From the NCBI GenBank assembly GCA_019912885.1, contig JAIOHV010000125.1, positions 1 to 54,884 on the forward strand: a stretch of 54,884 bases of DNA, read 5' to 3'. The notes under the pieces were generated by a model. It did not search any database, was not told the DNA's origin, and was given only the letters and a program-made list of their open reading frames with translations. The position numbers and the translations under genes are program-made. The stretch comes from a bacterium (GTDB lineage: Bacteria > Lernaellota > Lernaellaia > JACKCT01). Positions 9,812 through 16,638 of this stretch are shown piece after piece (within the stretch, counting starts at the first letter, position 1; each line of letters begins with the position of its first letter).

Positions 9812-10606
9812 TCATCCCGCGCACGCGTCCGTCATCGCGCGGCAAAACGCCTCGACGCGCTCGGCGAGATCGGGCGCGTCCTTGTGCTCGGTCACCAGCC
9901 GCACGAGCGCGCTGCCGACGATCGCCGCGTCGGCCGTCTCGCAGACGCGCGCGGCTTGTTCGGGCGTCGCGATGCCGAAGCCCGCCGCGATCGGCAAATC
10001 GGTATGGCGGCGCAGGCGCGCAACCATCGCGCCGATGTCCTCCGGTGCGGCGTCCGCGCCGGTGACGCCAAGCCTTGTAACGAAATAGACGTAACCCGTG
10101 CTGGCTCTTGTCACGGCGCGCACCCGCGCATCCGAGCTGGTCGTCGCGGCCAGGAAGATCGTGGCGAAGTCCCGAGCGCGCGCCGCGGCGATCAGTTCAT
10201 CGGCCTCCTCGGGCGGCAGATCCGGCACGATGACGCCATCCGCGCCGCACCGCAAAGCTTCCTCGACGAATCGCGCGTAGCCCATCGACTCGATCGGGTT
10301 TGCGTAGCCCATCAGCACCATCGGCGTTTCGATCAACGCGCGTAGCCGGGCGATGTCGTCGAGCAACGTTACCAGCGTCGCGCCGCCGGCGAGCGCGGCC
10401 TCGGACGAGGCCTGGATCACGGGTCCGTCCGCGACGGGATCGGAAAACGGTATGCCGATCTCCAGCACGGCCGCGCCGCCGCGAGCCGCCGCCGCCGCGA
10501 CCGCGAGAAAGCTTTCGCGATCCGGGTAACCGCCCGTCAAAAACGGAATGAACGCGCGTCCGCCGCGCGCGCGAAGTTCCGCGAAAGCCCGATCGATGCG
10601 ATTCAT
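9812..10606 (-). CDS. trpA: Tryptophan synthase alpha chain
   Basis: TrpA cleaves indole-3-glycerol phosphate to indole and glyceraldehyde 3-phosphate, passing indole to TrpB. The catalytic acids fall exactly at the canonical positions, Glu49 and Asp60, in [15 protein letters not shown]. The phosphate-binding region near the C-terminus ([12 protein letters not shown]) is also present. The length of 264 residues is normal. The ATG overlaps the trpB stop codon (ATGA). It is the last gene of the trp operon. Confidence 0.97.
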
Positions 10607-11790
10607 GCGGCGCCGCCCGGCGTATCCACGATGGTCGTGTCCTTGTCCCCGCGTCCGGAGATATTGATGACGACGATCGCATCCCGGGGCATCGACGCCG
10701 CGAGGTGAACGCCTTCGGCCACCGCATGCGCGCTCTCGAGCGCCGGAATGATGCCCTCGAGCCCCGCGAGCAAGCGAAACGCGATGAGCGCCTCATCGTC
10801 GGTCACCGCCGTGTAGCGCGCACGCCCGGTTTCCGCGAGGTACGCGTGTTCCGGCCCGACGCCCGGGTAGTCGAGCCCCGCGGCGATGGAGTGCGTCGGC
10901 GCGATCTGCCCGGATTCGGTTTGCAAAAGGAAACTGCGCGCGCCGTGCAGCACCCCCACGCGTCCGCCGGTGATGCTCGCGGAGTGCTCGCTTGTCGAGA
11001 GCCCGCGGCCCGCGGCTTCCACGCCGACAAGCTGTACGTCGGCGTCCGCGAGGAACGGGTGAAAAATCCCAATGGCGTTGCTTCCGCCGCCGACGCACGC
11101 GACGATCGCTTCAGGCAGACGATTTTCAGCATGCAGGATTTGCTCGCGCGCTTCGCGCCCGATCACGCTCTGGAAGTCGCGCACCATCATGGGATACGGA
11201 TGCGGCCCGACGACCGAACCGATGATGTAGTGCGTGTCGCGAAGATTCGTCACCCAATCGCGGATGGCCTCGTTTGTCGCGTCCTTCAACGTTCGCGAGC
11301 CGGAGGTGACGGGCACGACCGTCGCGCCAAGCAGCTTCATGCGAAAGACGTTCAGCGCCTGGCGTTCCACGTCCTCCTCGCCCATGTACACAACGCACGG
11401 CAACCCGAAAAGCGCGCAGGCCGTCGCGGTCGCGACGCCGTGCTGTCCCGCGCCGGTCTCGGCGATGATACGTGTCTTGCCCATGCGTCGCGCGAGGATC
11501 GCCTGTCCGATCGTGTTGTTCATCTTGTGCGAGCCGGTGTGATTCAGGTCCTCGCGCTTGAGGTAGATCTTCGCGCCGCCCGCGTGTTCGGTGAGGCGCG
11601 CCGCGAACGAAAGCGGCGTCGGTCTGCCGCAATAATCGCGAAGATACGATTCGAACTCGCGCCGAAACTCCGGGTCGCCGCGCGCGTCGTCGTAGGCACG
11701 CGTCAGCTCCTCAATGGCCACCATCAGCGTCTCGGGCATGAAGCGCCCGCCGAATCGGCCAAACTTTCCCCTGGCGTCGGGTAACGTCAC
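10603..11790 (-). CDS. trpB: Tryptophan synthase beta chain
   Basis: TrpB condenses indole with serine using pyridoxal phosphate. The PLP lysine is Lys89 in HTGSHKMNN, and the phosphate-binding glycine loop [10 protein letters not shown] is visible. The N-terminus [14 protein letters not shown] is that of the TrpB1 type that pairs with TrpA. The 395-residue length is usual. The start is GTG at 11790, overlapping the trpF stop by GTGA. The trpA gene follows with an ATGA overlap, matching the need for equimolar subunits. Confidence 0.98.
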
Positions 11791-12422
11791 GATTCCACCT
11801 TGCGCACCGCGTCGATGAACGCGCGCACGCGCGAAAGATCCTTCACGCCGGGCGAGGTCTCAAGGCGCGAGGACGCGTCGAGGGCAAACGGCGAAAGCGC
11901 GAGAATCGCCGCCCTGGCATTTTCCGGCGCCAGGCCTCCGGCGGCGAAAAGACGATCGCGCACAGGCTCGACCGCATCGGAAAAGCGCACCCAATCGAAC
12001 GCTTGCCCCGATCCGCCGGCGCGACCGCCGGCGCTCGAATCGAGCATCAGGTAATCCCATGCGCCGCCCGCGACGCGCGCGATCGCTTCGGCCAGCACGC
12101 TGCCGTTTTCGGTAACGGCGACGGCCTTGATGGCGGGAACGGGCAGGGCGGCGAAGTCGTCCGGCGATTCGCCACCGTGAAGCTGAACGAGATCAAGCGC
12201 CACGCGCTCCACAAGTTCGGCGACGCGCCCGGGCGTCTCGTCGACAAACACGCCGACGAGTTTGACGCCCGGCGCGGCGTCGCGGATTTGGCGCGCCGTT
12301 CGTTCGTCGACCCGGCGCGGCGACTCGGCAAAAACGACGCCGAGATAATCGGCGCCCGCCGCGGCGATTTCGCGCGCCTGGTCCGCCCGCGTCACGCCGC
12401 AGATCTTCACCCGGACGCTCAT
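11787..12422 (-). CDS. trpF: Phosphoribosylanthranilate isomerase
   Basis: TrpF performs the Amadori rearrangement of phosphoribosylanthranilate. The N-terminal [11 protein letters not shown] carries the catalytic Cys8, and the second catalytic acid lies in LMLDSSAGG. The product has 211 residues and a TIM-barrel length. The frame stays open for seven codons upstream, but the ATG at 12422 forms an ATGA overlap with the trpC stop and gives the family start, so it was preferred. trpC and trpF are separate genes here, not fused as in enterobacteria. Confidence 0.96.
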
Positions 12423-13201
12423 GCAAGCAACTCCCGGATGCACAAGGCGGGGTCATCGCTCGTGACCAGCGATTCGCCGACAAGCGCCGCGCGAACGCCG
12501 GCGTCGCGAAGCCGCGCCAGGTCCGCCGCCGAGCCGATGCCGCTTTCGCTTATGACCGTGCGGTGCGCATCGACGTTTTTTGCAAGCTCGATCGTGCGTT
12601 CCAGGGCGACCTCGAACGTCGCCAGATCGCGGTTGTTGATGCCGATCAGGCGCGCGTCGGCGCGTTGGGCACGCTCGATTTCTCCGGCGGAGTGCGTCTC
12701 CACGAGAGCCGCGATGGATAGCTCATGCGCCAGCATCACGAAATCGCGAAGCTCGGCCTCGTCCATCAAACGCACGATCAGCAGGCACGCGTCGGCTCCC
12801 ATCGCGCACGTTTCGTAGAGTTGGTATTCGTCGATGAGAAAGTCCTTGCGCAGAACCGGTAGCCGGCACGCGCCGCGCGCCTCGGTCAGGTCCGACGGTC
12901 GCGCCTTGAAGAAGTTCGGTTCGGTAAGCACCGACAGCGCCGCCGCGCCGCCGGCTTCGTAGGCCCGCGCCAGCGCGGCGGGGTCCAGATCGGCGCGCAG
13001 AACGCCCCTGGACGGCGAGGCGCGCTTGATCTCCGCGACGATCGCCGTTTTCGCCTTCGGCGTTTCGACCGCGGCCTGGAAGTCGCGCGGCGCGGCGATG
13101 GCGTAACATTGCGCCTCGAGTTCGGACAACGGCACGCGCGCCTTGGCGGCCGCGATGTCCTCGCGGCGCGCCGAGACGATGTTGTCGAGAATCGAATCCA
13201 T
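12419..13201 (-). CDS. trpC: Indole-3-glycerol phosphate synthase
   Basis: TrpC closes the indole ring from carboxyphenylaminodeoxyribulose phosphate. Signatures include VAEIKRASPSRG with the catalytic lysine, LRKDFLIDEYQ, and LIGINNRDLATFEV near the C-terminal half. The 260 residues match the monofunctional enzyme. The ATG lies nine bases after the trpGD stop. The downstream trpF overlaps it by four bases. Confidence 0.97.
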   Translation of the reverse strand: MDSILDNIVSARREDIAAAKARVPLSELEAQCYAIAAPRDFQAAVETPKAKTAIVAEIKRASPSRGVLRADLDPAALARAYEAGGAAALSVLTEPNFFKARPSDLTEARGACRLPVLRKDFLIDEYQLYETCAMGADACLLIVRLMDEAELRDFVMLAHELSIAALVETHSAGEIERAQRADARLIGINNRDLATFEVALERTIELAKNVDAHRTVISESGIGSAADLARLRDAGVRAALVGESLVTSDDPALCIRELLA

Positions 13202-13210
13202 GCCGTCTCC

Positions 13211-14806
13211 CTACGCGCCGTCGTCGTGCGAAATTCGCGCGAGGCCGACAAGCGCCGCCCGGGCACGTCCGGATCGCAGCGACTCGCGCGCGATTTCGAT
13301 GCCCTCGCGCACGTCGGCGGCCTTGCCCGACACAACCAGCGCGGCGCCCGCGTTGAGCGCGACGATATCGGCTTGCGGGCCGTCGCCGCCCGCGAGAATC
13401 CGCTCGGCGATGCGCCGGTTGATTCCCGCGTGTCCGCCGGCAAATTCGCCGGCCTCACAAAGCGTCAGGCCAACATCGCGCGGATCGAATTCGTATTCCG
13501 TAATCTCGCCCCCGCGCAACTCGGCAACGTGCGTCGGCCCGGTCAGGGTGATTTCGTCGAGCCCGTCGTGCCCGTGCACAACCATCGCGTGCTCCGTGCC
13601 CAGAAGGCGCAGCACCTCGGCGACGTGTCGCGTCAGCGCGCGATCGTACACGCCGATTACCTGCCGCTTCGCGCCGGCGGGATTGGTCATCGGTCCCAGG
13701 ATGTTGAACAGCGTCCGCATGCCGATTTCGCGGCGTGGCTCCGCCGCGTGTTTCATCGACTGATGATAGATCGGCGCGAACGCGAACGCGATGCCGGCCT
13801 CGGCCAGCGCGCGCTCCATGCGCTCGGGCGGACAGGCTATCTGAACGCCAAGCTCGGCGAACAAATCCGCGCTGCCGCAGCGGCTCGATACCGCCCGGTT
13901 GCCATGTTTGACGACCGGCACGCCCGCGCCCGCGACCGCAAGCGCCGCGACGGTCGAGATGTTGAACGTGCCCGCGTCGTCGCCGCCCGTGCCGCACGTG
14001 TCGACGACGCCCGCGCGATCCGTTCGGATCGGCCGCGCGAAGCGGCGCATCACGCGAACGCACGCCGCGATTTCTTCGGGCGTCTCGCCCTTGATGCGCA
14101 TCGCGACAAGCCACGCCGCGATCTGCGCGGGGGTCGCGACGCCGCTCATGACGTCTTCCATCACGTCTTCCGCGCCGGAAACGGAGAGGTTATCGCCGGC
14201 CAGAACGCGCGCGATCGCGTCGCGGATGAGCATCCTCGGGCGCCCGCCGGAAAGGAAGTTGCGAACGATGCGGCGTCCGTGCGAGGTCAGCACCGACTCC
14301 GGATGAAACTGCACGCCTTCGATCGGATACGTCCGGTGCCGCACGCCCATGATTTCGCCGTCCGGCGCTTCGGCGGTGATTTCAAGCTCATCGGGAAGCG
14401 TCTCGCGTTCGATCACAAGCGAATGATAGCGCCCGACCGTCAACGGCTTTTCCACGCCCGCGAACACGCCAACGCCAATGTGGTCGATGTCGCTCGTCTT
14501 GCCGTGAACGGGCGCCTTCGCCCGCACGATATGTCCGCCGAACGCCGCGCCGATCGCTTGATGCCCGAGGCAAACGCCAAGCGTCGGGATGCGCGGACCG
14601 AAACGCCGGATGACCTCGATGGAAATCCCCGCCTCGGCCGGCGAACAAGGCCCCGGGGAGATGACGATGCGGCCCGGGGCCAGGCGCTCGATTTCATCGA
14701 GCGTGATCGCGTCGTTGCGCACAACGCGCACCGTTTCGCCTTCCCGCTCGAAATCGTGCGCGAGGTTGTAAACGAACGAGTCGTAGTTATCGATGAGAAG
14801 AAGCAT
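13211..14806 (-). CDS. trpGD: Fused anthranilate synthase amidotransferase / anthranilate phosphoribosyltransferase (TrpGD)
   Basis: The 531-residue protein joins two pathway enzymes. Residues 1 to ~188 are the class I glutamine amidotransferase TrpG: MLLLIDNYDSF, Cys79 in GVCLGHQ, and the HPES triad segment. They supply ammonia to TrpE. Residues ~192-531 are TrpD, with the phosphoribosyl-pyrophosphate loop DTCGTGGDDAGTFN and NILGPMTNPA. TrpD transfers phosphoribose to anthranilate. The linker is only a few residues. The ATG shares one base with the trpE stop (TGATG), giving tight coupling to the partner subunit. The upstream open frame is shadow sequence of trpE. Confidence 0.96.
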   Translation of the reverse strand: MLLLIDNYDSFVYNLAHDFEREGETVRVVRNDAITLDEIERLAPGRIVISPGPCSPAEAGISIEVIRRFGPRIPTLGVCLGHQAIGAAFGGHIVRAKAPVHGKTSDIDHIGVGVFAGVEKPLTVGRYHSLVIERETLPDELEITAEAPDGEIMGVRHRTYPIEGVQFHPESVLTSHGRRIVRNFLSGGRPRMLIRDAIARVLAGDNLSVSGAEDVMEDVMSGVATPAQIAAWLVAMRIKGETPEEIAACVRVMRRFARPIRTDRAGVVDTCGTGGDDAGTFNISTVAALAVAGAGVPVVKHGNRAVSSRCGSADLFAELGVQIACPPERMERALAEAGIAFAFAPIYHQSMKHAAEPRREIGMRTLFNILGPMTNPAGAKRQVIGVYDRALTRHVAEVLRLLGTEHAMVVHGHDGLDEITLTGPTHVAELRGGEITEYEFDPRDVGLTLCEAGEFAGGHAGINRRIAERILAGGDGPQADIVALNAGAALVVSGKAADVREGIEIARESLRSGRARAALVGLARISHDDGA

Positions 14807-16275
14807 CAGCCCGAAAGCCCCGCTGCGCGCAACATCACCATCGCCTTGTGGCGCGTCTCTTCGTATTCCTTCTCCGGTATCGAGTCCGCCACGATGCCCG
14901 CGCCCGCCTGAATGAACAGATCGCGTCCCTTGCGCACCATCGTGCGGATTGTGATGCACGAGTCCAGGTGACCGGAGAGGCTGACGTAGCCGACCACGCC
15001 CGCGTAGGGACCGCGCCGCACCGGCTCGAGCTCCTCGATGATCTCCATCGCACGCACTTTCGGCGCGCCGGACACGGTGCCGGCGGGGAAGGTGGCGCGC
15101 AGCACGTCGAACGCGTCCTGCCCCTTTGTCAGGCGTCCCTCGATCTGCGAGACGATGTGCATTACGTGCGAATAGCGCTCCACGCGCTGATAATCCGTCA
15201 CGTTCACCGTTCCCGCGCGACACACGCGCGACAGGTCGTTGCGCCCAAGATCGACCAGCATCACGTGTTCGGCGCACTCCTTTTCGTCGCGTAGCAGATC
15301 GGCGGCAAGGAGCCGGTCTTCCTCCGGCGTAGCGCCGCGCGGGCGCGTGCCCGCGATGGGGCGGATCATCGCGAGATCGCCGGTCACTTTCACGTGCACC
15401 TCCGGCGATGCGCCGATCAGCGTCACGTCGTCAAAATCCAGGTAGAACATGTAGGGCGACGGATTCGTGGCGCGCAGGCGGCGATAAAGATCGAAATCGT
15501 CGCCGGTAAACGGCGCTCGATAGCGCTGCGAAAGCACAACCTGAAGGATGTCGCCCGCGTTGATGTATTCGCGTGCGCGCAAAACGGCGCGGGTGTACTG
15601 ATCGCGCGTCATTGTGCTTTCGATCGACGATTCGGCGAACGGCTCCACGTCGCGCACCAGGCGCTTGACGGTGCTCGTCTGCAACTCGCGCACGGTATCG
15701 CGAACGCGGCGCACGGCGCTTTCGTACGCGGTGGCCGGATCGGGCCCGGTCGTCGCGTAAGTCCCCACGGTAAGCTGCTGGCTGACTCGATCGAACGCCA
15801 CCACGACATCCGGAAACACCCACTGAAATTCCGGGATATCGAGATCGTCCGCGGCCGTTTCGGGCAGGCGTTCGAAGTGCCGCACGACATCGTACGACAT
15901 GTATCCCACCGCGCCGCCGAGAAACGGCGGGAGATGCGGCTCGGGCACGGGCTTCATCGCCGCGAGTAGCGCCGCGAGCGGCTCGAAGGGATCGTCGTAC
16001 GCCACCTCGCGGCGTTCGGCGCCCTCGATGATTTCCGCGTGCCCGCGTCTGCCGCGCACGACGATGCGCGGCGACAGCCCGAGGAAGGAGTAGCGTCCGA
16101 TGCGGTCGCCCCCCTCGACGGATTCCAGCAGGAACGCGCCGCCCCGCTGCGCCAGCGACAAAAACGCCGACACCGGCGTGTTCAGATCGTCGATGAGCTG
16201 CGCGTACACGGGCACAAGGTTGCCGTGCCGGCTCTTTTCCAGGAATTCCTCACGCGTGGGCTTGATGTCGGTCAT
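14806..16275 (-). CDS. trpE: Anthranilate synthase component I
   Basis: TrpE converts chorismate to anthranilate with ammonia from TrpG. The C-terminal chorismate-binding domain shows PIAGTRPRG, EHVMLVDLGRNDLSRV and FPAGTVSGAPKVRAM. The N-terminal domain carries LLES at residues 49-52, the motif that forms the tryptophan feedback pocket, so allosteric inhibition is expected. The length is 489 residues. The ATG at 16275 gives the normal family start; upstream of it lies a U7 run and a candidate attenuator rather than coding sequence. It is the first structural gene of the trp operon. Confidence 0.96.
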   Translation of the reverse strand: MTDIKPTREEFLEKSRHGNLVPVYAQLIDDLNTPVSAFLSLAQRGGAFLLESVEGGDRIGRYSFLGLSPRIVVRGRRGHAEIIEGAERREVAYDDPFEPLAALLAAMKPVPEPHLPPFLGGAVGYMSYDVVRHFERLPETAADDLDIPEFQWVFPDVVVAFDRVSQQLTVGTYATTGPDPATAYESAVRRVRDTVRELQTSTVKRLVRDVEPFAESSIESTMTRDQYTRAVLRAREYINAGDILQVVLSQRYRAPFTGDDFDLYRRLRATNPSPYMFYLDFDDVTLIGASPEVHVKVTGDLAMIRPIAGTRPRGATPEEDRLLAADLLRDEKECAEHVMLVDLGRNDLSRVCRAGTVNVTDYQRVERYSHVMHIVSQIEGRLTKGQDAFDVLRATFPAGTVSGAPKVRAMEIIEELEPVRRGPYAGVVGYVSLSGHLDSCITIRTMVRKGRDLFIQAGAGIVADSIPEKEYEETRHKAMVMLRAAGLSG

Positions 16276-16278
16276 TTT

Positions 16279-16346
16279 AAAAAAACGCAAATCCTCATTC
16301 GCCGCGACGGTCGCCGCGGCGCCTGTTGAATCGATTTCCTTGCAAA
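16279..16346 (-). terminator. Candidate trp attenuator/terminator hairpin
   Basis: Read as RNA on the minus strand, an eight-pair GC stem with tetraloop (16320-16301) is enclosed by an outer stem. The outer stem pairs the GCAA...AUC segment within 16346-16333 with GAUUUGC (16293-16287) and is followed directly by U7 (16285-16279), then AAAAUG of trpE. A GGCGCC next to the leader Trp codons could pair with the GGCGCC just before the inner stem, giving an alternative fold. This was worked out by eye without folding energies, and the outer stem has a four-base bulge. Confidence 0.42.
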
Positions 16347-16352
16347 CGGGGG

Positions 16353-16430
16353 TCAGGCGTCGGGCGTAATTCGCCGGCGCCACCAAATCGGAAGCGAGCA
16401 AGCAAGCGGTCTGGCCGAATGAGCGTCCAT
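16353..16430 (-). CDS. trpL: Candidate trp operon leader peptide with tandem Trp codons (TrpL)
   Basis: A 25-codon open frame lies 77 bases before trpE. It starts ATG-GAC-GCT, contains adjacent Trp16-Trp17 (TGG TGG at 16385-16380) followed by Arg-Arg-Arg, and ends in TGA at 16355-16353. Its layout parallels known trpL peptides: short, Trp-Trp near the end, followed by a hairpin and U-run before trpE. There is no clear Shine-Dalgarno. However, a promoter candidate ends seven bases upstream of this ATG, so the transcript could start at or next to the AUG (leaderless). An in-frame ATG at 16439 lies within the -10 element and is less likely. Chance occurrence of TGGTGG is not negligible. Confidence 0.5.
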   Translation of the reverse strand: MDAHSARPLACSLPIWWRRRITPDA

Positions 16431-16437
16431 TCGGTCC

Positions 16438-16466
16438 ATTTGAGGCAAAAGCGCGAGCGAGGTCAA
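16438..16466 (-). promoter_or_regulatory. Candidate trp operon promoter
   Basis: On the minus strand, TTGACC (16466-16461), a 17-base spacer and TCAAAT (16443-16438) precede the leader ATG by seven bases. This would place transcription start at about 16431-16430, at the first base of the leader peptide. Confidence 0.45.
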
Positions 16467-16471
16467 TACGT

Positions 16472-16506
16472 GATTGAAGATTGAAGATTGCGGATTGAGG
16501 ATTGCG
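16472..16506. repeat. GATTGAA-type simple repeat, arm 1
   Basis: This is a degenerate array of GATTGAA/GATTGAG units. An array of the same units lies in inverted orientation at 16604-16638, so the two could pair as a long imperfect hairpin with a ~97-base loop. The sequence between them shows no gene I can support. Confidence 0.6.
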
Positions 16507-16603: not shown

Positions 16604-16638
16604 TAATCTTCAATCCTCAATCTTCAATCTTCAATCCG
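16604..16638. repeat. GATTGAA-type simple repeat, arm 2 (inverted)
   Basis: This is the inverted partner of the array at 16472-16506. The TGA stop of the adjacent minus-strand gene (16633-16631) is part of a GATTGA unit, so the repeat supplies the gene's end. Confidence 0.6.

Follow-up and report, generated by a model that had tools for sequence, protein, structure and literature searches.

What controls the complete trp operon carried by this bacterium, and does translation of its leader begin at the 5'-terminal base of the mRNA? These questions arise from the minus-strand region ahead of trpE in the window, by which we mean the whole stretch of 54,884 nucleotides that was analysed. The explanation we consider best is a ribosome-mediated transcription attenuator of the E. 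coli type, probably read from a leaderless leader mRNA, and we assign this reading a probability of roughly 0.87. It would extend peptide-sensing attenuation to a deep lineage known here from genome assemblies alone. A first-pass annotation had proposed a peptide-based trp attenuator with a leaderless TrpL; the conserved WW-R codons, the hairpin and the promoter-to-start distance described below support that proposal.

Leader, operon and their conservation in the phylum

The trpE-GD-C-F-B-A operon is complete, lies on one strand and is tightly packed, with trpC to trpA spanning 9812..13201 (Table 1). Upstream of it, the first-pass annotation had described TTGACC and TCAAAT boxes 17 nt apart, seven further bases, and a 25-codon ORF with adjacent Trp16-Trp17 codons and a TGA stop, and every one of these elements is found where it was placed. 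The -10 box of the window promoter is poor, -10 boxes being weak across the trp leaders, and it is overlapped by a second in-frame trpL ATG at 16439 (28 codons). Directly upstream of the promoter, short repeats of the GATTGAAGATTGAGGATTG type form an inverted pair at 16472-16504 and 16604-16636, about 100 nt apart. Repeats of this type have seven matches in the window against 0.01 expected, a similar pair lies upstream of hisG in the same genome (L145), and they possibly represent a small mobile or spreading element.

Table 1. Coordinates of the trp leader elements and trp genes in the window
Feature	Position	Strand	Basis or remark
-35-like box TTGACC	16461..16466	-	Read directly
Spacer between the boxes, 17 nt	16460-16444	-	Read directly
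-10-like box TCAAAT	16438..16443	-	Read directly; 4/6 consensus bases
-10 box to trpL ATG, 7 nt	16437-16431	-	
trpL leader ORF, MDAHSARPLACSLPIWWRRRITPDA, 25 codons + TGA	16353..16430	-	Read directly; WWR kept in relatives; ATG 16430, predicted +1; TGA 16355-16353
Tandem Trp codons UGG UGG (Trp16-Trp17)	16380..16385	-	Putative ribosome stall site
Strand 2, CGCCCGACGCCUG	16354..16366	-	Partner of strand 1 or strand 3
Strand 3, CAGGCGCCGCGGCG	16312..16325	-	Antiterminator partner and 5' arm of terminator
Outer stem, AAAUCGAUUC / GAAUGAGGAUUU	16289..16337	-	Folding; arms 16337-16328 / 16300-16289; extends terminator towards T-run
Core terminator hairpin, 9 pairs, GACC loop	16300..16321	-	Folding
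T7 tract of terminator	16279..16285	-	Read directly
trpE, anthranilate synthase component I	14806..16275	-	TIGR00564 above cut-off
trpGD fusion	13211..14806	-	NF011201 above cut-off, matching from residue 158 of the program-made ORF onwards
trpC	12419-13201	-	Profile scan
trpF	11787-12443	-	Profile scan
trpB	10603-11790	-	Profile scan
trpA	9812-10606	-	Read from its ORF, no profile scan

Conservation was assessed in a phylum sample of seven genomes (G000-G006), four of which carry trpE (G000-G003); the window belongs to G000. All four trpE-bearing genomes have TTGAC, a start codon 33-37 nt on, TGGTGGCGC (TGG-TGG-CGC), and a hairpin with a T-run. The first-pass annotation had named, as an observation that would speak against it, close relatives without the Trp-Trp ORF or hairpin. 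None was encountered: Trp-Trp-Arg codons and a hairpin resembling a terminator are present in every other trpE-bearing genome, the codons being out of frame in G002. Intact WW-R leader peptides occur in three of the four genomes and are otherwise little alike (MDAHSARPLACSLPIWWRRRITPDA, MNNGVRVNTRSSGVNPLCLGWWRVR and MVDKAVVQVLQAVQIKGWWRSMQ). The start codon stands 35 nt from the initial T of TTGAC in G001 and 37 nt in G003, where ORFs of 25 or 23 codons with Trp-Trp-Arg are followed by the hairpin and T-run, and outside these leader elements the region shows little likeness to the window. The promoter-to-start distance is also kept among the trp leaders of the phylum. G002 has a GTG at 33 nt from TTGAC, and TGGTGGCGC is out of frame with this GTG as assembled. 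Because the G002 assembly also splits trpE into two frames and trpS into four, an assembly error likely explains the out-of-frame Trp codons. Neither the trpE/pabB N-terminal domain nor prephenate dehydratase was found in G004, G005 and G006 (family f3), and these may be aromatic amino-acid auxotrophs.

This pattern bears on two readings without an attenuator. A trpE that starts farther upstream would make the region coding, and its frame is indeed open for 103 codons upstream in the window and open also in G002; however, G001 and G003 have short, unrelated upstream frames of 33 and 36 codons, the M-I-K/E-P starts align, and it is instead the WW codons, hairpin and T-run that are conserved. 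We regard this reading as highly improbable. Hardly any weight falls either on a chance association of a WW ORF with the ordinary terminator of an upstream gene. WW ORFs of 8-60 codons do occur upstream of 12 of the 110 trpE genes scanned, some clearly at random, but WWR, promoter distance and hairpin are kept in all trpE-bearing genomes of the phylum despite dissimilar surroundings, and ilvB and hisG share the layout with matching amino acids.

Competing structures and the proposed attenuation mechanism

As with the leader elements and their conservation, the competing pairings are a direct outcome of computation. Strand 1, GGUGGCGCCGGCG, begins at the tandem Trp codons of trpL. The first-pass annotation had based the competition on GGCGCC at the Trp codons and again before the terminator stem; both copies exist (the second at 16323-16318), but the working competition is that of strand 2 (16366-16354) versus strand 3 (16325-16312). 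Its hairpin nested in an outer stem and followed by U7 is likewise present, with nine pairs on folding rather than the eight it had counted. The window antiterminator consists of CGCCCGACGCCUG paired with CAGGCGCCGCGGCG (2:3 duplex, -21.9 kcal/mol), and that of G001 of CCCGUG-aac-GCC paired with GGCCACGGG. The terminator of the window reaches -27.7 kcal/mol with the outer stem and -20.9 kcal/mol for the core.

Terminator and antiterminator energies, a comparison that the first-pass annotation had suggested, were computed for G000-G003, and competing pairings are predicted in all four. Antiterminators were folded with the Trp codons masked, as for a ribosome stalled on Trp, and with strand 4 not yet made; they gave -20.4, -15.9, -26.3 and -13.5 kcal/mol in G000, G001, G002 and G003, the G002 figure including other helices. 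The corresponding terminators alone gave -20.9, -17.8, -20.1 and -18.9 kcal/mol. The antiterminator is mutually exclusive with the terminator, strongly in G000, G001 and G002 and weakly in G003, where it is non-significant by duplex energy alone (P 0.40). Among dinucleotide shuffles of the window, P was 0.003 for the terminator and 0/2000 for terminator and antiterminator together, a lenient test, since the allowed gap between stem and T-run was set to fit the observed one. For the relatives, P for both structures over 2000 dinucleotide shuffles was 0.002, 0.0025 and 0.010. The whole window leader by itself is modestly stable (z -1.5), and conservation is therefore the real evidence.

The terminator is the least canonical part of the window leader. 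An intrinsic terminator between the leader ORF and the first gene is canonical in the three relatives, and the T-run spacing in the window is not: a gap of 14 nt (16299-16286) lies between core stem and T7, whereas canonical stems adjoin the T-run. Termination in the window would therefore depend on the weaker outer stem as a bridge. CCACG/CGUGG is common to the terminator arms in G001, G002 and G003, and its place in the window is taken by a different sequence. With such a gap, the hairpin might instead act mainly on translation, the extended stem hiding GAGGA (16297-16293) as the ribosome site of trpE with little termination. GAGGA does lie within the outer stem, and the window trpE (ATG 16275) otherwise has no well-placed Shine-Dalgarno (SD) site, anti-SD pairing at its start being weak (-3.6). 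Nevertheless, the 17 nt between the end of GAGGA and the ATG are too many for a normal SD, and in the three other genomes the stems directly adjoin the T-run and the SD sites are clear of the hairpin. A mainly translational role thus appears improbable.

Under transcription attenuation, which we favour, transcription would start at, or a few bases from, the trpL AUG, and the ribosome would therefore initiate directly at the 5' end without an SD site. When charged tRNA-Trp is scarce, the ribosome would stall on UGG UGG and cover strand 1; 2:3 pairing would then take the place of the terminator and trpE-GD-C-F-B-A would be transcribed. When tryptophan is sufficient, the ribosome would reach UGA and cover strand 2, so that the 3:4 terminator could form and transcription would stop before trpE. 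If the leader is not translated, the 1:2 and 3:4 hairpins would form and transcription would stop too. We infer the start at +1, ribosome stalling, termination and regulation of the trp operon from the arrangement of these elements.

Control of the operon by TrpR, TRAP or a T-box was also considered, and none of the three was found: TrpR (PF01371) and the TRAP protein (PF02081) were each detected in 0 of the 7 phylum genomes, and Rfam searches of the trp loci at gathering and permissive thresholds returned nothing relevant, with no Trp_leader match and no T-box. The leader resembles the Escherichia coli trp attenuator in its competing 1:2, 2:3 and 3:4 pairings and its tandem Trp codons, and differs from it in having no match to the Rfam Trp_leader model. 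In E. coli, the leader mRNA carries an SD within a 5' UTR, and attenuation operates alongside TrpR.

Leaders at the ilv and his operons and the start of translation

The trp leader is no isolated case: at three operons, and across three families within the phylum, a start codon is kept where transcription should begin. Leader peptides of the branched-chain type lie upstream of ilvB in G000 (MRRFEGLFILVLLGVPG, L131; ILVLL), G001 (MRNVKAFGRFILVLVLIGSV, L132; ILVLVLI) and G002 (MRRAIDNLFVIVLLLGILA, L133; VIVLLLGIL), each ATG being preceded at 36-38 nt by TTGACA, and each ORF followed by a strong hairpin/terminator and T-run ahead of ilvB. In family f3, hisG is preceded by leader peptides with the His motifs HHHHSH and RHH (RHHRF) (MKSFGNLILHHHHSHGAAGAG in G005, L149; MRESLMIRGRHHRFPATPGGRVMV in G004, L151), with terminator-like hairpins and the promoter distance seen in the trp leaders. 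In G006 (L150), hisG still has the promoter and the hairpin ahead of it, with a GTG equally far from the promoter, and the short ORF lacks His. No leader was found upstream of trpS and pheS in the phylum or of hisG in G000-G003, where starts mostly have SD sites, and none was seen upstream of leuA and PDT in G003.

The nine leaders, made up of four at trp, three at ilv and two at his operons, have their start codon at an offset of 33-38 nt, counted from the initial T of TTGAC. The mean offset, near 36 nt, is that expected for a start codon at +1 with a sigma-70-type polymerase, and TTGAC falls within six given positions by chance at about 0.4-0.9% of places in these sequences. This promoter-start geometry played no part in finding the trp and ilv leaders; the two his leaders give it no independent support, because their scan used it. 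Anti-SD duplexes at the leader starts range from -3.4 to +1.8 kcal/mol around a background median of -2.6, so that none of the nine has an SD site above background, and those at 17 ordinary gene starts in the same genomes range from -3.6 to -10.7 kcal/mol. The promoter spacing fits a transcription start at the start codon in all nine leaders. A real attenuator with a short 5' UTR, its promoter elsewhere or its start a few bases off, would not be strictly leaderless; such an arrangement would suit the weak -10 boxes of the trp leaders, and the range of offsets allows a 5' UTR of 1-3 nt at some leaders. We consider it unlikely, as the mean over nine leaders and three operons matches a start codon at +1 and no leader has an SD site above background.

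More tentatively, and with the odds somewhat against it, the trp, ilv and his operons of the phylum may generally be controlled by attenuators that have leaderless leader ORFs throughout, with ordinary genes started from SD sites. Dedicated 5'-terminal initiation would then couple the first ribosome firmly to the polymerase and replace TrpR, TRAP and T-boxes.

Parallels and candidate leaders in other lineages

The first-pass annotation had called a leaderless instance in this kind of organism unusual. A partial literature search found no earlier report of such attenuation for this lineage, but the case is less surprising than supposed, since Sinorhizobium meliloti and Streptomyces lividans both have a documented leaderless TrpL. 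A 2010 survey noted that leader-peptide systems had until then been shown in Proteobacteria and Actinobacteria only, and added Firmicutes. The S. meliloti trpL (rnTrpL) is documented as leaderless, its AUG being the 5' end of the mRNA (PMC7298713, PMC10117765). It shares with our leader an attenuator before trpE and an AUG at the mRNA 5' end, the latter predicted here; its peptide has 14 codons, its first gene is trpE(G) as against trpE followed by a trpGD fusion here, and trans activity of both peptide and RNA is known there. Actinobacterial trp attenuators have been predicted (PMC1262725), and TrpL1 ahead of trpE in S. lividans is documented as leaderless, along with several further leaders in that genome (PMC8079986). 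Our case is similar in its short ORF, predicted to be leaderless, its tandem Trp codons, hairpins and T-run, and its several additional candidate leaderless leaders in one genome; in S. lividans, unlike here, trpE is monocistronic and the WWW peptide has 18 residues, and the phylum is another one. The same tendency in Streptomyces raises the question of whether starting translation at the first base aids attenuation by fixing the distance between ribosome and polymerase.

Several WW ORFs were also present at distant trpE loci, with a mixed layout; three of them (L024, L036 and L030) look real. In other lineages, the leader ORFs ahead of trpE at L024 (G031) and L036 are rich in Trp (WRWWRWR; WRWWWRQ) and are accompanied by a hairpin and T-run. 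At L030 (G025), in an unrelated lineage, a leader reading MRSLPAFWWPG lies 122 nt before trpE, six bases separating its ATG from an upstream TATCCT, and this is likely another leaderless trp leader.
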